64,000 nucleotides of DNA from Flavobacteriia bacterium (GTDB lineage: Bacteria > Bacteroidota > Bacteroidia > Flavobacteriales_D > Crocinitomicaceae). The stretch is taken from NCBI GenBank assembly GCA_009924735.1, contig RFQZ01000004.1, positions 1 through 64,000 on the forward strand, given 5' to 3'. The notes beneath the pieces were generated by a model. That model saw only the letters and a program-made list of their open reading frames with translations, searched no databases and was not told where the DNA came from. The translations under genes and the position numbers were made by a program. Positions 34,300 through 43,487 of this stretch are shown here, in pieces (positions within the stretch are counted from its first letter, which is position 1; each line of letters starts with the position of its first letter).

Positions 34300-34336
34300 A
34301 ATTAAACAAAACAAGAGCGCTCAATGAGCCCTCTTG
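34300..34336 (-). terminator. Hairpin plus T-rich run between the PorV-like gene and greA
   Basis: On the minus strand a 25-nt near-palindrome (34336-34312) has two paired arms of 11 bp plus one mismatch and a 1-nt centre, followed by TTTTGTTTAATT. It fits a rho-independent terminator for the TonB receptor-cargo-PorV operon. A possible greA -7 box (TAATTTTG at 34349-34342) lies upstream of it, so it could instead be a leader attenuator of greA. Confidence 0.65.
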
Positions 34337-34360
34337 CCTGACAAAATTACAACTTTAAAT

Positions 34361-35413
34361 TTATTTTAAACTAATCGTAGCCCCAATGGTATGGATGATA
34401 CCAAATACGCCTGCAAAACGCGAGCAGTACTCAATTCCTAAAGCGCTTTTGTTTTTACCAACCAAAGCATCAACCGAAAATCCTGCCGTAGGACCTACCA
34501 ACGCATTCGAACGATTTTCTTGGCTAAAAATTCCTTTCTCATAAACAAAACCACCGCGCAAGTTAAATGCAAGCTTTTCTGTATTCATTCCGTAGTCTAA
34601 ACCTATTTTGTACTGGTCTTTTGAAAAGGAATTTGCTTGAAAACCTAAAGCAAGTGTCAATCTGCTGTCATCCGAGAAGATAAAATCATATGACCCACCA
34701 ATGGATAATAAAGAAGGAAGCTCATACGTCGCAGAACGCTGCTCCAATGAAGCAATGAATCCACTTGATACATAAGATACTTGTTGAGCCAAACCGTCGC
34801 CTTTAAAACGCATCACAGGGCCCACGTTTTTAAGTGCAATGCCAAACTTCAGTTGGTTTTGTTCACCCGTAACATATCGAATACCTGCATCCAATGCAAT
34901 TCCATTCGATTTCAAGTTGAAAATACTCTCTGTAACCACTTTAAAGTTAATTCCACCGTAAATGGAAGATGAGAATTTTTTAGCAAAGCCGAGATTAAAG
35001 ATGTTTGCTCTTGGAGAGAAATAACCAATGTTACCCTCAGGATTTGCAACCGTAGTAATGGGAACATCCCCATAACTTAATGATTGAATGCTTACTGCAA
35101 ACACATTAGACTCGCCAACTTTTTGGGCAATTCCCGCTGAGTTCATTGCAATTCCAGCACCGCCCATCCAATTTGTATAATTGAACTTGATTTGTGTTTT
35201 GTCGGTGAATGCCAAGCCAGCGATGTTCGAAAACTGCGCTTCCAAACCATTGACATTGGCAATACCAACGTCTCCTATGGCAGAACCACGTGCCCATGGG
35301 TTGATGAGTAAATGGGATGCGCCGGCAGAACCGACACGGTCTTCGTTTCCACCAAACCCAAAAAAGGAAATGGCAGAAAAAAGGATGATGTTATAAAGTG
35401 TTATTCTTTTCAT
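34361..35413 (-). CDS. PorV/PorQ-family outer-membrane protein (PorV2-like)
   Basis: This encodes 350 residues from ATG 35413; the TTG four codons upstream is rejected. After a signal peptide, the segments S-A-G-A-S-H-L-L-I-N-P-W-A-R-G and N-V-N-G-L-E-A-Q-F-S-N-I-A-G-L-A-F match PorV/PorQ-type T9SS barrels, of the branch usually labelled PorV2. PorV shuttles T9SS cargo from the translocon to the cell-surface attachment complex. The gene is last in an operon with the giant secreted protein (18 bp upstream) and the TonB receptor, so it may be dedicated to that cargo. Confidence 0.85.
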   Translation of the reverse strand: MKRITLYNIILFSAISFFGFGGNEDRVGSAGASHLLINPWARGSAIGDVGIANVNGLEAQFSNIAGLAFTDKTQIKFNYTNWMGGAGIAMNSAGIAQKVGESNVFAVSIQSLSYGDVPITTVANPEGNIGYFSPRANIFNLGFAKKFSSSIYGGINFKVVTESIFNLKSNGIALDAGIRYVTGEQNQLKFGIALKNVGPVMRFKGDGLAQQVSYVSSGFIASLEQRSATYELPSLLSIGGSYDFIFSDDSRLTLALGFQANSFSKDQYKIGLDYGMNTEKLAFNLRGGFVYEKGIFSQENRSNALVGPTAGFSVDALVGKNKSALGIEYCSRFAGVFGIIHTIGATISLK

Positions 35414-35431
35414 TACTACGTTCAATAAAAA

Positions 35432-38400
35432 TTAAATTCCTTGATAATCCGGGGTACGAGTACCTCCAAAAAACTTCAAGATGACTTCTCCGACATTCGG
35501 AACTTCTACGTGAATTAGGTATACCCCTCCTGCAATCGGTATGGATTTGTTATTTGTTAAATCCCAATCTAACGAGGTTACGTAACTGTCCTTTTTAAAC
35601 GTGCGGATCAATTTCCCGTTCACAGAATAAATCTTCACGGTACACTTATCTGGCAAGTTGGTGATTTTCACCTTGGTTTCAAGACGCGTACGTTCGTAAT
35701 CTGAATAGGCATAATATGGATTAGGCACTACGTTAATCATTTTCAACGCTTCATCCAACGCATCATGTGATCCGAGCGTAGTCGCAATTTCATCCATTGA
35801 CCAACCGTACATTGGTTTTCCATTGTTTTGACCCGTTGCTGTGAAATTCTTGTATTCTTTATTGATACGAAGTTTAATGGTTACATCGGTTTCAAGTATA
35901 GAATGCCCCATATTCAAAATTGGGTAAGAAATCCAACTTAAACTTCCGTACAAATCTCTTTTCGCTTGGGTACTGATTGAACCAGATGGATTTTGTACAT
36001 CGGTCCATTTTTGGTACAACTCATTTGTTGCTGTATCTACTGCCGTTGCTGGATTGTATGCAGGGAAGTCATAGCTAGAGGTATATCCGTTGATGGATTT
36101 TTGGTTATAGCTAAATACATACACAGGGTGCATTCCACCCATTAATGGTGTACCCACATTGCTAACCAAACGATCGGTTGGATTCCATTTCATGTCCGCG
36201 CCATTTTCACCTCCAAGGAATGAATTTTCACCAAAAGCCATATACAAACGAGCGCCTGACTCTAGGTCAATGGCATAACCAGGAAACCAACCCATACCGA
36301 AACCTGTACCATCAGGGTTTCCATCCTTATCTACGCTTGGACTTTTTCGCATTGCACCTGGCGCTGCGGAGCCTACGTTTAGTCCAGACGTTCGACCCAA
36401 TTCAATAACCGGACATCTTGTCCAAAGGCTTTTGTCATTGGTTAGTACGATGTCAACACTTGGCAAGAAGGAAATGGATGCATTTTGTTTTGAAGAACCA
36501 CTGAATGTTCCATAATAAGCCAGCGGCATATAATCTGCTTGATATCCAACCAAACGATGCGGCGCAATAACACCATCCAATATCCCTTCATATTTTTGAG
36601 AGGGATCCGGACCTACTTCATCTGGATAGTTACAAGGATTTAGGTAAACAGGTGCATTTGGCAAACATTCATAGCCTGCAGCACCAATGGTTGATACAGG
36701 GGAATAATCACCCGAACGAATCCAGTTGGTAGGAAAATAGGAATCATTGTCCGAGATACCTGAAAGCCATCTTTTAGAGGAGTCTTTGAAGGTAACAGAT
36801 GATTCAATCATGTCTGTTGTTTTGGCTGTGATGTTACCAGAACCTGAAGGAAAAAAGTATTTCTCTTGGTGAATTTGCACTGAAATCCCCCAATCAGGAA
36901 TGATTTGTTCATTATCTCCCGCAATGGTAACTTCGGAAGTTACAGAATCCAACAAAGTACCCCCTTTAACATCGTATTGATATACGATCCAACTTGCCGT
37001 ATCGGCTGCATTTCCTGGGGAAGTTGCTGTGTAGTCTCTGAATTTACATTCGTAATACCCTTTTTTAAGGTTCAGTGGATCAACAACTTTTATGTTGATT
37101 GGCCCCTTTCCTTTTTCATATTCTGGAGTATCTAAAAATCCATTTGTCAAAATGCTTTTAACAGAAGCATCTGTTAGCTCCAAGGACCTGTTTCCATTTC
37201 CATACCCATCCAACCGGGTAATTTTAGGAGAGGAACCATATTCAATGTTTTGATAGGTACCTTCCAATTCCGGCATCGGATTGTGAGGAACGGCCGCGGT
37301 TGCACTGATTGCGGTTCCATCAAAATTCAAACGCGAAGATATGTAAGGAATTTTTTGACCATCTAAGAACAATGGATCGGTTGGATCATATTTTTTGAAT
37401 TGATTAAATGCATACGCTACGGCTACGTAGTAATATGTTTTGTGATTTACCAAACGTCTTGCTCCTTGGGCAAAAGCGTCTTCCAATACTTGGAAAGAGT
37501 GACGAATTCCTTTGTTTTCGCCATCTACTTTTTCAACAGGCACTGAAAATCCAAGTGCTTCATTGAATTCAAAATTAATAATGCGGTCGTGTCCATTTTT
37601 GATGTCACACTGCGCTACCAACCTTGCTTTGGTTGGGTCGGTGATGTCAGCAACAGAAACATCCGTACTTTTCAATTGGAAGATTTGGTATCCTTCAAAT
37701 CGGTATTTTCTATCAACCGTTGGATCCGGGATATTAATTTCATCTATTTCCTCATACCCTTCTCTGTAGTTGTTCGATGAAGAAGGATTTTCAAGCATGA
37801 TGATAAGTTCGTTGTTAAGTTCTTGAATGGTCACTTTAGGAGCATCCGGTGGAGAAAGGATTTTAAAGCAAGCATCGAACAAAGCTTGGGCTTTGGTATC
37901 CGCCCTTTTCATTGCATCTACAGAAGCCAATAAGGTTCCATCCGTGCTACGGCCATAAACAATTCCAACGGTAATGTTATTTACGGCACCCGGTTTCAAG
38001 GTAAATGGACCTGCAGACTGAACAAAACGTCTGTCTCCTGGAGGATTGTTATTTGTAGATTCATCCCATCCGTTCGGATATGCACCGGTCATGTCTTGAC
38101 CTGCCGTAGACCAGCTTAATGGATCCGAAGTTCCTGGGAACATATAATCAGAGAGTACGCCTTGGGCAGTACCTAAACCACCGTAGTACATTTCTGATCC
38201 ATTTGCCCACTGTCCTTCCATGAAGTTGTAAAACTCTGAAGCAGATCCGGGGTCATTGTATGGGTAGGCAGCAGTTGAGGTATAGTAGGTAAATCTTCTC
38301 ATACCAAAACGCTCATTGTCAATGATGCCATCGGAATAACCAATGCCAATGCCTTTGTATACAATTCCGTTGTTTGCAAGTGCATCTACAACGGTTGGGA

Positions 38401-39607
38401 CAATGTTTGTTTGGGTTGCTTGGTCGAAATAAGGACCTGGATTGTCAATGCCGTCTGCATCTTGATAAGGACCTTCAAAGAAGTCACATCCAATGGCAGG
38501 TGGGTTCTCACCGTATCCTAATCTTCCAGCGTTGGTCTCGTCATTCAAGTCACCATTGAACATGTAACCCAATCCACGAGAAACATCACAACCTGCATAG
38601 TCATCAGAAAAATTTCCTACATCCGCATCGAGGTATTGCGCAAAATACGTATCGTACAAAGTTTGTGTTCCACGGTTAATTAATTCATAGTTGTAGAAAG
38701 TCATACGGTTAACCTCATCATTAGTAGCAAACGAAAAAGCTTGTGCACGAATTTCCATTCCAATTGGATCCCCATTGGTTTCGGTATGTATGTTCCCTTT
38801 GTCGTTAAATACCCACCAATGCGTTTCATCACCATAAAGCGAAATGCGACGGTCAAATCCACATTGAATGTCATCTCTTCCCAAAATGTCATCATACCAA
38901 GGGTGATCACCGTTGTCTGGGTTATAGTTCCCATCTTGGTCTCTGTCGTAATAAGGCGCTAAGAAATAATCTTGACCTCTTGAAACATCACCATGCGCTG
39001 GCCAGTTATAAATTCTATTGAGCTCATCGTTTGTTGGCGCGATGATATCGTTGCATTCCGTTGAAATTCCAGCGTTGCATTCCCACCAAATGTTAAAGCG
39101 AATGATTTCTGCTTTTCGGATGGTATAAAATTGGTCATACGCGATACATTGATCCGGATCGATGTTTGCTTCTCCGAAATCCCGAATCGCTTCGTTTCCT
39201 ACAGGGAATAAAGGATTATAATTTCCAGTTCCAGGGTTAACACTTAGGGGGCCAGGCCAGAAATCATTGCCTGAACGGTAGCGCAGCGCTGCCAGTTTTA
39301 ACTGACCGTTGACATCGGTACCTCCCATCCAAAGCGCACCTGCAAAAATGGCAAATCTGTTGCTCCCTTTAGGAATTTCATAAGCAGCAACGCTATTTTG
39401 ACGATTTTGGAACATGCTTCCACCTTGTTCAATTAGGGCACGTACATCATTAAACTCCATGATGTATTTTGCCGTAGCGGGACTACAATTTGCTCCTTTT
39501 GGTTTACCTGAAGGTTTTGTGATTTTATCATTAGGGCCGTAATATGCCAAGGCATTAGATCCTAAAAATAAAAAGCCTATTAGGGTTGCAAGTATTTGCT
39601 TTTTCAT
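35432..39607 (-). CDS. Giant secreted protein with C-terminal T9SS-like sorting domain
   Basis: This encodes 1391 residues. The signal peptide ends at A-L-A (about 1-21). The body has many Asp, Asn, Gly and Tyr residues, and D-R-D-Q-D-G-N-Y-N-P-D-N-G-D near 225-240 looks like a calcium-binding Asp-rich loop. I see no named enzyme domain. The last 95 residues have V-V-P-N-P-Y-Y-A-Y-S, V-K-I-Y-S-V-N-G-K-L and G-G-V-Y-L-I, the pattern of a type A T9SS or FlgD-Ig-like sorting domain, followed by an extra F-F-G-G-T-R-T-P-D-Y-Q-G-I tail. It lies between a TonB receptor (21 bp) and PorV2 (18 bp), so it is probably exposed on the cell surface. Confidence 0.78.
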   Translation of the reverse strand: MKKQILATLIGFLFLGSNALAYYGPNDKITKPSGKPKGANCSPATAKYIMEFNDVRALIEQGGSMFQNRQNSVAAYEIPKGSNRFAIFAGALWMGGTDVNGQLKLAALRYRSGNDFWPGPLSVNPGTGNYNPLFPVGNEAIRDFGEANIDPDQCIAYDQFYTIRKAEIIRFNIWWECNAGISTECNDIIAPTNDELNRIYNWPAHGDVSRGQDYFLAPYYDRDQDGNYNPDNGDHPWYDDILGRDDIQCGFDRRISLYGDETHWWVFNDKGNIHTETNGDPIGMEIRAQAFSFATNDEVNRMTFYNYELINRGTQTLYDTYFAQYLDADVGNFSDDYAGCDVSRGLGYMFNGDLNDETNAGRLGYGENPPAIGCDFFEGPYQDADGIDNPGPYFDQATQTNIVPTVVDALANNGIVYKGIGIGYSDGIIDNERFGMRRFTYYTSTAAYPYNDPGSASEFYNFMEGQWANGSEMYYGGLGTAQGVLSDYMFPGTSDPLSWSTAGQDMTGAYPNGWDESTNNNPPGDRRFVQSAGPFTLKPGAVNNITVGIVYGRSTDGTLLASVDAMKRADTKAQALFDACFKILSPPDAPKVTIQELNNELIIMLENPSSSNNYREGYEEIDEINIPDPTVDRKYRFEGYQIFQLKSTDVSVADITDPTKARLVAQCDIKNGHDRIINFEFNEALGFSVPVEKVDGENKGIRHSFQVLEDAFAQGARRLVNHKTYYYVAVAYAFNQFKKYDPTDPLFLDGQKIPYISSRLNFDGTAISATAAVPHNPMPELEGTYQNIEYGSSPKITRLDGYGNGNRSLELTDASVKSILTNGFLDTPEYEKGKGPINIKVVDPLNLKKGYYECKFRDYTATSPGNAADTASWIVYQYDVKGGTLLDSVTSEVTIAGDNEQIIPDWGISVQIHQEKYFFPSGSGNITAKTTDMIESSVTFKDSSKRWLSGISDNDSYFPTNWIRSGDYSPVSTIGAAGYECLPNAPVYLNPCNYPDEVGPDPSQKYEGILDGVIAPHRLVGYQADYMPLAYYGTFSGSSKQNASISFLPSVDIVLTNDKSLWTRCPVIELGRTSGLNVGSAAPGAMRKSPSVDKDGNPDGTGFGMGWFPGYAIDLESGARLYMAFGENSFLGGENGADMKWNPTDRLVSNVGTPLMGGMHPVYVFSYNQKSINGYTSSYDFPAYNPATAVDTATNELYQKWTDVQNPSGSISTQAKRDLYGSLSWISYPILNMGHSILETDVTIKLRINKEYKNFTATGQNNGKPMYGWSMDEIATTLGSHDALDEALKMINVVPNPYYAYSDYERTRLETKVKITNLPDKCTVKIYSVNGKLIRTFKKDSYVTSLDWDLTNNKSIPIAGGVYLIHVEVPNVGEVILKFFGGTRTPDYQGI

Positions 39608-39628
39608 GCTATTGTTCTGTTTTCTTAA

Positions 39629-42600
39629 TTAAAAATCATATTTAACACCCAAACGAATGGTACGAGGTACACTTACGTTAAACGGATTATTTACCTTCAT
39701 GGAGTAGTAATCCCTAAAGGATTGTTCATCGGTTTGGTTTTGAATGGAAGTTTGGCTCGACGCTGCAGCGAGGTAACCATCATCATCTGCATTTCCTGTA
39801 GCTCGATAAATTCCGAGTACATTAAACTGATTAAATAGATTGGTTGCACGGATGTAGATGTTGAAGTTGGAAACCTTTTTCTTGTCTTTGCTTTTTGCAT
39901 CCTTGTTTTCATGAACGATGATAAAGTTTTTATCTAACTGCATGTCCAATCGATAGGTCCATGGCATTCTAGAACCATTCACTGTTCCGCTGATACCCGC
40001 ACTTAAATTCCCAATTCCTTCATCCGTAATAGCCGTTTGTGCGGAGTATGGATAACCTGAATTGATGTTTGTAAAGATGTTCAAACCGGTATTTTCAAAC
40101 AAGTTGAATTTTCCGATTTTAGGTCCATTGTAATCTTTTCCATCTCCATATCGGTAATCGAAAGTAATGGCAAAAGCATGACGTTGATCGAAACTGTAAG
40201 GAAAGATGTTTCTTAGGTTAGGGATGCCCGCATTGATAAAAGATGACATTGAATTCGCATCTGACCCTGTACCATCAGCGAATTGCAAGGTGTAGTTTGC
40301 TGTCATACGAATGTTACCTGTTTGTCTTAAATCATATGCGATGGTTAGTCCTTTAACGGTACCAAAGTCTCTGTTTCCATATGTTTTATAGGATGCTGGA
40401 TAAGCCATGAACATATTGATTAACTGAACATTGTTTCTTTGTTCACGGTAAAACGCCGAGATTTTAAGTGAAGACGTTTCGGAAAGCACTTGTTGAAATC
40501 CGAGTTCGTAATCCACCGTTGTTTCTGGTTTCAGGTTCGCATTGTTAATGATTGCTGATCTTGATTGAACAAACTGGTATTCAAACGGATCAAATCTAAA
40601 TCCTGAAGTCGGTCTTTTAGTCAAGATGTCATAATGTGCGAAGAAAGACGCTTTTTCCGAAATTGGAAATGAGAAAGCAATACGAGGCATTACGTTCACT
40701 TGCGCTTTGTAATCTTCAAACGCCGTTGCATCAGGTGTGGTTTGTCCTGGAGTTAGCAACCATGGAGCAATACCACCAGAACCTTGAATGGTTTTAGGGT
40801 CTTCAACGTTTGTCCCCACAGCATTGTACCAGCTTGATCCCGTTCTAAAACCATTGATGCCTGTAGGATTTGAGATGTCGTTCACATAAACTATGTAATC
40901 ATCCCCCATGCTTTCAGGTATTACTACCCAACTGTATTGGGAAGGATCTGCAGCTTTGAGAGCTTTCGCTTCTTTTACGGTTCGTGCATTGTAAAATAAA
41001 TATGGATCTTTTAGTACCGGTTGGTTTGCATCAAACACATCCACTCGAACACCGACATTGAAAACGATGTCTTTGAAGGCGAATTTATCCATGATGTAAC
41101 CCGCCATGTAGGTTGGTTGAAAAGCCCCAACAAATCTTTTGTAATTTCCGTTTTTATCAAATTCATTGAAGTATTTGTTAATGTCTGTTGTCCCTTTCAC
41201 GCGTTTTCCTGTATGATCAAAGCCCCAATAAGAAACAAAAGAATTCCCCCCGTTGAGAAGCTCATCCGGAGCAAACATGTCAAATTGAAATAAAGTTGGA
41301 TCGTAGTTATCGATGTCAACATAGTCATTTCCATCTACAGCCAGACCCAATTCTTTACGTAAATTGTAATCGAAAAACGATTGGTTGTCATTGTTAAGCT
41401 GACCTCCATATTGGCCTGTTCCAGATTGATGTGCATATCCGGAATTCAAACGTTGGTACGTAATGGCTTTGAAAGAACCTGAATCTGAAAGAACACCTGT
41501 TGAGTAGTCCAATTCTTCAATATGGAAATTCGTCAACTGTCTTGCAATCGACCAAATTCCTATTGGACCATTGGTTCCGTCGCTGGTTGTAGTTCCTGAT
41601 GTCCATCCACGGTCTACCCTTTGTTCAAACTCAAATCCTAGGGAAATGCTATGGTCTCCGAATACCAATGAACCAGAACCGGTTACACGAAACTGGTCGT
41701 TTTCAGTTTTACCAAAGTAATTGTAAGGGCTACCGATGTTACTCCAAATTCCATAAACACTTTGAGGGGCATCTCCATTTCTAAGGGCATTTCCCTGTTG
41801 AAGTTGGAATAAGTTCTCGTAGTGACCCAGGGGTAATCCTTGGTATAAGTTATAATATTGGGTGGTAATTGAAGCCAAGGCGGCGTTGGTTGTAGATGGG
41901 GTGTAGTTTACTTCAAGGTCTTTGAAACCATTGTGTTCCCATCGTTGTAAATTTTCATTAAACTCATATGAAGCGGTTCGGTTGGTAACGAATTTTCCGA
42001 CATGACCATAATTAAACAAATTGTATTTGTGGGTTGGGTCGTAGGTGTCCGATTTGGATTTTGAATAATCTACCATCAAAGTGTAGTTGGCTGACTTTAA
42101 TTTACTACCTTTTTTGTCATTGGTAAAACGTTGGGAAATTTTTCCATAAACCCTGTAATCTAGGTTTTTGGATTTGCCAAAATTTGTAAAATTTAATAGT
42201 GAACCTGTATAGGAGTAATTGGAACCATTTGAGTAGTTCAATGAACCTCCAAATTGCAAGTTGACCGAGGGGCCTGTATTTACATCAATTTTTCCTTGAG
42301 CGGAAATAGAGGTGGACCTAGCGTTCATTCGCCAAGCTTCTTTTTCGAAATCATTCTTCCTAAGAAACAAGGCATTGTGAAAGGTACCAAAGCCAGATGC
42401 AGTAGGACGTAAGGGATTATTCAACAAGGCAGTTCTAACTGAATCCTTGATTCGGTAACCTCCCCCTGCAAGCGGTCTGTTGTCTAATTGATCGGTAAGG
42501 TTTCCTGAAAATAAAAACCCAAGTCTTGGTTTGGTTTTCTTACCCGTTGAGTCTTTTTGCATCCAAAGTGGACCTGAAAGCATTCCTTCTACAAGGTTGT

Positions 42601-43411
42601 AACCAAATTTATCCAATCCGATTACTTTTCCATCATATCCATTTGGATTTTTTCCTTTAAAGTAGGCCCCAGAGGTTACCAATTCGATGCTTCCGAAATA
42701 GACCGCAGAAGGACCACGTGTGGTAACTGAAATGATTCCACCTGTAACATCACCATAGTTAGCGGGAACACCTCCGGTAATTACAGATACTTCTTCTAAA
42801 GCTGCCTTAGGTAAATTTGAAGACCCTCGCACTTTGATTCCGTCAATATAAAAATAGGTTGCATCTGAACGCGACCCCCTTACAGATATCTCACCGCTTC
42901 CTTCGTTGGTACCTACACCACCGACAGATTGTGCCACCCCTGCAGCAGAACGAATAGGCATTCTAGCGATGTCCTCTCTACCAACCGTAGCACCTGTTGC
43001 GCCACCATCTTTGTTAATTAAAGGTATTTTATAGCGTGAAACTTTCACCTCATCGATGTTTTTTATGTTTTCCGGTTTGGCCAAAGTAAGCTTTTCCAAA
43101 AAGGTGATTTTATCGGTGGAAATGAGTACATTTTGGGTAACCGCATCTTGATATCCTTCAATTTTGAGGGTAACTTTTAGGTCATACGAACCCGGCAAGA
43201 TTGCGTCAATTTGAAATTCACCTTTTTCATCTGTTAAGGTGCTTCCTTTAATGCTCGTTCCCGACATTAACATCACTTTCGCACCTACGATTAGGGTGCT
43301 TGTTTTATCGTCCTTTACGGTGCCTTTAAGGGTACCTAAACCCGATTGCGCAAACATACAAGAGCTTGTGAATAAAACACTTACAAATAATATTTTAATT
43401 TTATCTAACAT
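39629..43411 (-). CDS. TonB-dependent receptor with carboxypeptidase-regulatory-like N-domain
   Basis: This encodes 1260 residues. After a signal peptide (to about 22), a beta-sandwich L-K-G-T-V-K-D-D-K-T domain (25-110) is the carboxypeptidase-regulatory-like domain of SusC-type receptors. A plug domain follows (about 135-235), with I-S-V-R-G-S-R-S-D-A-T-Y-F-Y-I-D-G and G-D-V-T-G-G-I-I-S-V-T-T-R-G. The long C-terminal barrel ends with an aromatic residue, V-K-Y-D-F. It imports, or binds at the surface, an unknown ligand powered by TonB. No SusD homolog is next to it; the partner is the giant T9SS-like protein. A well-formed promoter lies at 43457-43487. Confidence 0.9.
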   Translation of the reverse strand: MLDKIKILFVSVLFTSSCMFAQSGLGTLKGTVKDDKTSTLIVGAKVMLMSGTSIKGSTLTDEKGEFQIDAILPGSYDLKVTLKIEGYQDAVTQNVLISTDKITFLEKLTLAKPENIKNIDEVKVSRYKIPLINKDGGATGATVGREDIARMPIRSAAGVAQSVGGVGTNEGSGEISVRGSRSDATYFYIDGIKVRGSSNLPKAALEEVSVITGGVPANYGDVTGGIISVTTRGPSAVYFGSIELVTSGAYFKGKNPNGYDGKVIGLDKFGYNLVEGMLSGPLWMQKDSTGKKTKPRLGFLFSGNLTDQLDNRPLAGGGYRIKDSVRTALLNNPLRPTASGFGTFHNALFLRKNDFEKEAWRMNARSTSISAQGKIDVNTGPSVNLQFGGSLNYSNGSNYSYTGSLLNFTNFGKSKNLDYRVYGKISQRFTNDKKGSKLKSANYTLMVDYSKSKSDTYDPTHKYNLFNYGHVGKFVTNRTASYEFNENLQRWEHNGFKDLEVNYTPSTTNAALASITTQYYNLYQGLPLGHYENLFQLQQGNALRNGDAPQSVYGIWSNIGSPYNYFGKTENDQFRVTGSGSLVFGDHSISLGFEFEQRVDRGWTSGTTTSDGTNGPIGIWSIARQLTNFHIEELDYSTGVLSDSGSFKAITYQRLNSGYAHQSGTGQYGGQLNNDNQSFFDYNLRKELGLAVDGNDYVDIDNYDPTLFQFDMFAPDELLNGGNSFVSYWGFDHTGKRVKGTTDINKYFNEFDKNGNYKRFVGAFQPTYMAGYIMDKFAFKDIVFNVGVRVDVFDANQPVLKDPYLFYNARTVKEAKALKAADPSQYSWVVIPESMGDDYIVYVNDISNPTGINGFRTGSSWYNAVGTNVEDPKTIQGSGGIAPWLLTPGQTTPDATAFEDYKAQVNVMPRIAFSFPISEKASFFAHYDILTKRPTSGFRFDPFEYQFVQSRSAIINNANLKPETTVDYELGFQQVLSETSSLKISAFYREQRNNVQLINMFMAYPASYKTYGNRDFGTVKGLTIAYDLRQTGNIRMTANYTLQFADGTGSDANSMSSFINAGIPNLRNIFPYSFDQRHAFAITFDYRYGDGKDYNGPKIGKFNLFENTGLNIFTNINSGYPYSAQTAITDEGIGNLSAGISGTVNGSRMPWTYRLDMQLDKNFIIVHENKDAKSKDKKKVSNFNIYIRATNLFNQFNVLGIYRATGNADDDGYLAAASSQTSIQNQTDEQSFRDYYSMKVNNPFNVSVPRTIRLGVKYDF

Positions 43412-43456
43412 AGGTTAACGTATAAGAAACATTGTATTCGCATGAATTAAAGCTGT

Positions 43457-43487
43457 TAAATATAGAAATATTCGGCGTTTTGGCAAA
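43457..43487 (-). promoter_or_regulatory. Promoter of the TonB receptor-cargo-PorV operon
   Basis: On the minus strand TTTG (43487-43484) is separated by exactly 19 bp from TATATTTA (43464-43457), one base from the -7 consensus. The leader to the ATG is about 40 nt. Confidence 0.7.

Follow-up and report, generated by a model that had tools for sequence, protein, structure and literature searches.

A conserved Bacteroidota operon encoding a TonB-dependent receptor, a giant secreted protein with a type IX-type C-terminal domain and its own PorV-like barrel

Analysis of a 64,000-nucleotide stretch of DNA from a Flavobacteriia bacterium of the family Crocinitomicaceae (positions 1 to 64,000 of contig RFQZ01000004.1, assembly GCA_009924735.1; hereafter the window) revealed a three-gene operon encoding a TonB-dependent receptor, a secreted protein of 1391 residues (the cargo) and a PorV-like outer-membrane barrel. 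The receptor-cargo-PorV gene order is old, and our surveys support inheritance of the three genes as one unit. We put at about one in two the probability that this trio is a single outer-membrane machine, in which a cargo exported by the type IX secretion system (T9SS) remains attached to a barrel of its own and acts jointly with the receptor. If so, an operon in which a T9SS-type cargo is combined with both a TonB receptor and a PorV paralogue private to it would link two machineries, and a near-universal protein of a whole order, for which neither Pfam nor NCBIfam gave a domain above cut-off, would gain a testable role. No description of the operon was found in the open-licence PubMed Central (PMC) literature, as covered by titles and the openings of abstracts, with preprints outside this scope.

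Linkage and inheritance of the three genes

An earlier, sequence-only reading of this DNA had described an operon of exactly three genes with gaps of 21 and 18 base pairs (bp), and both the coordinates (Table 1) and the gaps (receptor to cargo and cargo to PorV-like gene, respectively) were as it described. The six flanking genes identified by family scan, GreA, HIT and DUF4886 downstream and phosphopantetheinyl transferase, PcrB and NadC at the opposite end, all belong to other families.

This arrangement extends well beyond the window. A single contig scan yielded 196 relatives, and the best 80 of these were compared. Of the 77 cargo copies with more than 600 bases of upstream sequence, 72 were immediately preceded by the receptor, and of the 51 copies with more than 1000 bases of downstream sequence, 42 were immediately followed by the PorV-like gene. 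Where all three genes were complete (36 of the 80 loci), the gaps were 18-39 and 11-75 bp. Nine cargo copies lacked a PorV-like gene, comprising four that were receptor-linked (L012, L013, L014 and L016) and five second copies. In the genomes of the former four, PorV is found close to a contig edge, where it adjoins another cargo copy at its 3' end, and an unlinked PorV was rejected for these genomes because it follows this second copy there.

Of 199 genomes from the window's order, 192 matched the cargo (E 1e-30), including 149 of the 150 complete and clean genomes and 61 of 62 genera, and so did 131 of the 247 genomes of a phylum sample (E 1e-5); these searches scored no more than the top two or three candidates in each genome. 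The neighbourhoods of 71 of these 131 genomes were read, together with six regions from the genomes behind named loci, and profiles broadened on the first matches gave 125 cargo-profile frames. Among the 103 frames that bore the C-terminal domain (CTD) described below and were uncut at the 3' side, 82 were arranged receptor-cargo-PorV, 6 were cut off upstream and had PorV, 5 were likewise cut off and lacked PorV, and 10 had neither neighbour; outside the window's order the corresponding numbers were 81, 2, 4 and 10. The remaining 22 frames were mostly cut, or were relatives without a CTD match, several of them side by side. Routine unlinking of the three genes, which the sequence-only reading had named as its refutation, was not found: outside the window's order, 81 of the 91 cargo copies readable on both sides had the full arrangement, in a search whose cargo profile drew on the window's order, where nearly all the cargos used belonged to trios, and so is biased toward trio-like relatives. 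A full trio was present in 65 of the 71 genomes read, representing 24 family codes, which stand for families in the phylum sample; of the other six, G059, G145, G149, G221 and G256 were cut by contig ends and G166 had its cargo split in two frames.

The two partners of the cargo also track a difference in its C-terminal end. Cargos have either the usual end in K (type K) or a further tail of about 8-12 residues (type X), which in the window's order is FFGGMRQVDLQGI-like. In a tree of 102 cargo-adjoining barrels (L156 and L157 excluded; 15 rows from the window's own order labelled by hand from cargo tails), cargo type switched once, separating 70 X from 32 K barrels (sub-clades 99 and 97), and a single switch likewise separated 47 X from 31 K receptors (support 100) in a 78-row receptor tree built with FastTree. 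Eight genomes (G015, G033, G045, G049, G080, G088, G096 and G107) have one operon of type K and another of type X, or more, and there too the barrel sub-clade matches the cargo type, with no exception, so that species descent alone is an insufficient explanation. What does explain the match is that two old operon types were each inherited intact, as private partners would give, which supports the earlier proposal of a private pairing between the PorV-like protein and its cargo.

That proposal had also spoken of a single giant cargo, which is true for the genome of the window; several relatives carry two full-length copies. In L058 and L067, a second full-length cargo with the usual tail lies downstream of a complete trio on the same strand. 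A tandem pair of CTD-bearing cargo copies with no adjoining receptor or PorV was found in each of L196, L304 and L318, the first of which shares its contig with a trio, L324, in which the cargo is divided between two frames.

The cargo and its C-terminal domain

Modelling of cargo residues 737-1391 (predicted local distance difference test, pLDDT, 86.2) gave a C-terminal domain whose best fold match was that of PorZ (Z 10.2, 91 residues aligned, 24% identity), followed by PorU (Z 8.6). Other T9SS CTDs matched at Z 7.3 (mirolase) and 7.0 (NucA), and comparison with the RemZ CTD gave a TMt of 0.74. The cargo C-terminus scored 33.0 bits against the PorZ model. When eight CTDs were compared with NCBIfam models, PorZ scored best for the five that are tail-extended, the window's included, and PorU for the three others, and two of the eight passed TIGR04183 (24.4 and 23.9 bits). 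By its predicted fold the cargo C-terminus is a T9SS sorting domain, notwithstanding its own miss of TIGR04183.

For type A T9SS cargos, removal of the CTD is described to be followed by release or by fixation to lipopolysaccharide, and cognate PorV-like barrels have already been proposed as possible shields of the CTD against cleavage (PMC10202324). The CTDs of PorZ and PorU are reported not to be removed (PMC11285876), and PorQ is reported to anchor PorZ, and PorV to anchor PorU (PMC5562754). A C-terminal extension is reported to be compatible with secretion in P. gingivalis (PMC11285876), and since an extension is tolerated in this way, the conserved extension of the cargo suggests a use beyond secretion, such as a grip on the barrel.

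In L012-L016 and L212, a cargo copy has the altered tail AFIAMR instead of FFGGMR and no adjoining PorV; in L012-L016 this copy is receptor-linked. An early idea that loss of PorV altered the L012-L016 tail was dropped, being based on one clade.

The cargo begins with a signal peptide that, judged by eye, lacks a lipobox. Its N-terminal residues 38-744 were modelled at pLDDT 83.4, and a large predicted beta-sandwich in this part resembled, by fold search, the first domain of enzymes of the GH15, GH116 and GH65 types, of dextran dextrinase and glucodextranase, and of GH94 phosphorylases (Z 18.6 to about 14, 218-272 residues aligned, 6-13% identity; for the top match Z 18.6, root-mean-square deviation 3.2, 252 residues aligned, 11% identity). 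In enzymes of the GH15, GH94, GH116 and GH65 types, the catalytic part is a helical barrel that follows the sandwich. The fold match excludes the catalytic part, and the matched sandwich is what we take to be the non-catalytic domain of these enzymes; the candidate of the cargo as an enzyme was therefore rejected and no activity is claimed for it. An acidic stretch of the cargo (residues 327, 335, 336, 341 and 356), invariant in a 52-row alignment, may bind calcium, and in an alignment of 29 rows nine cysteine columns reached a conservation of at least 80%. Approximately residues 780-1280, in the middle of the cargo, are hardly touched by the listed fold matches; we do not claim a new fold there, because sparse matches are no evidence of one.

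Four loci (L172, L173, L204 and L206) encode proteins that mainly share the N-terminal part of the cargo and have a mostly different C-terminus, several of them side by side, with no adjoining receptor or PorV.

The PorV-like barrel

The barrel belongs to the PorV/PorQ family, scoring 139.1 bits against NF033709 (cut-off 90), and seven further trio barrels scored 110-231 bits. It scored below the equivalog thresholds of true PorV (NF033710, 69.6 bits, cut-off 250), true PorQ (NF033711, 80.5 bits, cut-off 220) and PorV2 (NF052325, 43.3 bits, cut-off 325). The genome of the window has six PorV/PorQ-family matches, three of them above cut-off; since these include a true PorV on contig C5 (387.3 bits, neighbours included in the frame) and a true PorQ on contig C40 (288.6 bits), the window barrel is a third one. 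In a tree of 131 proteins, the trio barrels (75 rows) lay to one side of a branch with a support of 90 in the Shimodaira-Hasegawa-like approximate likelihood ratio test (SH-aLRT), below the 95 mark, separate from PorV (29 rows, 100) and PorQ (27 rows, 94). Nine rows were excluded from this tree: L156 (cut), L157, L175, the PorQ rows L263, L265 and L280 and the PorV row L243 (odd length), and L239 and L264 (duplicates of the genome's own proteins).

SprF is reported to be disulfide-bonded to GldK via twin cysteines in its C-tail (PMC12635249). In a 20-row barrel alignment no cysteine column reached 80%, and an SprF-like coupling via cysteines was rejected on this ground.

Eight genomes of classes other than the window's (G017, G028, G033, G044, G049, G053, G065 and G069) had 10 to 17 PorV/PorQ matches each at E 1e-10. 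The trio may account for part of the expansion of the PorV/PorQ family, which reaches 15 and 17 matches per genome.

The receptor and co-occurrence with the secretion system

Family models identified a carboxypeptidase-like N-terminal domain and a plug in the receptor. The SusC/RagA model was absent among its NCBIfam and Pfam matches, and SusD was not among the six scanned flanking genes; a SusC-like receptor was rejected, as neither family models nor flanking genes support it. When the genome was searched with the receptor's own profile, the window receptor was the sole strong match (2377.8 bits; next 63.8). In the phylum sample the receptor profile (E 1e-20) matched 104 of 247 genomes, 102 of which also match the cargo, in profile searches that scored two candidates for each genome. 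SprA, the general T9SS translocon, was found in 190 of the 247 genomes (on contig C2 in the genome of the window), namely in 131 of 131 cargo-matching genomes versus 59 of 116 others; these co-occurrence counts, for cargo, SprA and receptor alike, are uncorrected for relatedness.

A proposed outer-membrane machine and its alternatives

In the machine that we propose, the cargo would be synthesised with a Sec signal and would cross the outer membrane through SprA by means of its CTD. Rather than being cut off for attachment of the cargo to lipopolysaccharide, the CTD would be retained in the private PorV-like barrel and would hold the cargo at the surface, as in PorQ-PorZ and PorV-PorU. The adjacent TonB-dependent receptor would carry out transport, and the surface-held cargo would capture a ligand or present it to this receptor, a role that elsewhere falls to the lipoprotein SusD. 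The barrel had been called a shuttle, a term that implies hand-over; anchor fits better because the sorting domain most resembles those of PorZ and PorU, which are reported to be anchored (PMC5562754, PMC11285876). We infer T9SS export, retention of the CTD and docking on the barrel, docking having good support, and more weakly a complex of cargo and receptor and a glycan-like ligand. The sequence-only reading had also suggested that the cargo may replace SusD as a surface lid or be anchored by the receptor; both suggestions go beyond what the genes, their linkage, the predicted CTD fold, the association with SprA and the matched inheritance show. A broader reading, somewhat short of an even chance, is that the trio represents a further TonB importer architecture, an old one with a wide distribution among the Bacteroidota sensu lato. 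Its surface partner would be no lipoprotein but a protein exported by the T9SS and docked by an uncleaved CTD on its own PorV paralogue, and its two ancient operon types, which differ in the tail extension, would be found side by side in some genomes with no exchange of parts.

In this phylum, TonB receptors are chiefly known in combination with lipoproteins. SusCD systems consist of a TonB-dependent receptor with an N-terminal carboxypeptidase-like domain that is encoded beside its surface partner, as in the trio; unlike SusCD, the trio gave no SusC/RagA match, has no SusD among the six flanking genes, and has a partner with a T9SS-type domain and, by eye, no lipobox. With PorQ-PorZ and PorV-PorU the trio would share a T9SS-exported protein that keeps its CTD and is held by a barrel of the PorV/PorQ family (PMC5562754, PMC11285876). 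It differs from these pairs in that, except at its C-terminus, the cargo gave no match to a PorZ or PorU model, the barrel stands apart from true PorV and PorQ in the tree, and a TonB receptor is part of the operon. Type B cargos are reported to have a cognate PorP/SprF shuttle (PMC12618676), and anchoring on PorP-like barrels has been described (PMC9143113); like the trio, these systems have a single barrel gene directly 3' of the cargo gene and specific pairs, and they show the barrel anchoring that is proposed for the trio (PMC12618676, PMC9143113). Unlike them, the trio has no type B CTD or PorP/SprF match up to E 10 in NCBIfam and Pfam, has a receptor in addition, and lacks a conserved barrel cysteine column comparable to the C-tail cysteines that bond SprF to GldK (PMC12635249). 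By analogy, then, the cargo-barrel half resembles the PorZ-PorQ and SprB-SprF pairs and the receptor half resembles SusCD minus SusD, and the trio fits the definition of none of PorQ-PorZ/PorV-PorU, type B-PorP/SprF and SusCD.

Several observations weigh against a joint machine. Intact inheritance of the operon would by itself also yield linkage and matched trees, which speak for a unit rather than for a complex, and a shared fold by itself demonstrates no function. Ten of the 91 readable cargo copies have neither neighbour (in eight cases the genome also has a full trio, and the other two are from one genome with a split cargo frame), and the five PorV-less second copies among the best 80 relatives (L049, L052, L083 and the second copies in L058 and L067) lack a receptor as well. 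The receptor profile was absent at E 1e-20 from 29 of the 131 cargo-matching genomes, part of which match the cargo weakly, at about E 1e-6. As to the CTD, the TIGR04183 cut-off of 23 bits was narrowly missed by the whole cargo (17.8) and by its last 160 residues (22.2), and family-model likeness to PorZ and PorU amounts to 15-40 bits. The CTD has an immunoglobulin-like fold, and unrelated immunoglobulin-type domains (Vpr fibril, Z 8.2; an S-layer protein, 7.6; fibronectin, 7.3) come near it and equal the scores of the NucA and mirolase CTDs, so that PorZ alone stands clear. The 131-protein tree, finally, contained neither PorV2 nor any of the many other PorV-family paralogues.

The most serious rival explanation holds that the barrel is a dedicated shuttle only, which takes an independent surface protein from SprA to a site or to PorU for processing, while the receptor is co-regulated without contact. 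Cognate shuttles for single cargos are the closest worked-out precedent (PMC12618676), a large cargo with nine conserved cysteine columns is what a structural surface protein might look like, and receptor-less cargo copies exist. We nevertheless consider a mere shuttle unlikely, since the receptor is linked and tree-matched just as PorV is and the CTD of the cargo is most like retained ones. A complex of receptor and docked cargo that serves signalling or outer-membrane biogenesis is more doubtful still, even though occurrence in nearly every genome of the order would suit a housekeeping part better than a nutrient system. Its model is BamG-BamH over BamA, where BamG, a FadL-type barrel, holds a surface lipoprotein and so supports a large extracellular protein, as is proposed for the trio barrel; unlike the cargo, BamH is a surface lipoprotein, and its partner is BamA rather than a TonB receptor (PMC12611786, PMC12578637). 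The six scanned flanking genes include no FecR/sigma-type regulator and no biogenesis gene, and 59 of the 190 SprA-bearing genomes lack a cargo match at E 1e-5, which argues that the trio is not a general assembly part.

Because PorV is reported to be a FadL homologue (PMC12578637), the barrel might itself pass a hydrophobic compound, with the cargo as an extracellular binding protein and the T9SS domain as a mere export signal. The window barrel is recognised by PorV/PorQ models (139 bits), with no transporter family scoring above cut-off, and the sub-clades of the barrels track the cargo tail types, which makes such uptake very improbable. We give even less credence to the view that three surface-protein genes stand together by chance: only the ten neighbour-less copies speak for it, and it is contradicted by a survey in which 81 of 91 copies are linked across 24 family codes and tail type changes once on the trees of both partners.

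Features of the locus and minor observations

The features of the operon are collected in Table 1. The sequence-only reading had placed the three genes between one clear promoter and a terminator-like hairpin, and each of these held up in part. The promoter-like motif is present; it is only weakly conserved, a loose version of it preceding the receptor in 30 of 66 related loci (chance rate not computed), and a sigma-70 scan of the region found 14 sites versus a shuffle mean of 23.7, i.e. fewer than in the shuffles. The hairpin folds at -18.0 kcal/mol (64 nucleotides folded) and is followed by a T-rich run, but it was not among the sites of a simple terminator scan.

Table 1. Features of the receptor-cargo-PorV operon in window coordinates
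Feature	Position	Strand	Basis or remark
TonB-dependent receptor, 1260 residues	39629..43411	minus	open reading frame, family models
Cargo, secreted protein, 1391 residues	35432..39607	minus	open reading frame, signal peptide
PorV-like outer-membrane barrel, 350 residues	34361..35413	minus	ATG start, 12 bp downstream of the listed TTG at 35425
Promoter-like TTTG-N19-TATATTTA	43457..43487	minus	motif match, weakly conserved
Terminator-like hairpin, then T-rich run, 3' of PorV-like gene	34309..34339	minus	folding
T9SS-type C-terminal domain of cargo, approximately residues 1280-1391, conserved tail FFGG..R..D.QGI	35432..35770	minus	predicted structure, family models
N-terminal part of cargo, approximately residues 41-583, large beta-sandwich	37859..39487	minus	predicted structure, fold search

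L214, L215 and L323, which consist of 100-base fillers, were dropped. The record names of L007, L020, L034, L057, L058 and others (Chryseobacterium gleum, Chitinophaga pinensis, Planktophila, Glaciecola) look wrong, as the sequences group with metagenome-assembled genomes of Flavobacteriales.

In G000, a single open frame of 1993 residues (C16:15541-21519; L288:5542-11520, minus strand) contains both a PorV2 barrel (396 bits, cut-off 325) and a PorU2 sortase with a T9SS tail (572.8 bits, cut-off 450). The near relative G010 (L100) has PorV2 and PorU2 as separate overlapping frames, and the joined frame is therefore either a private fusion or an assembly error.

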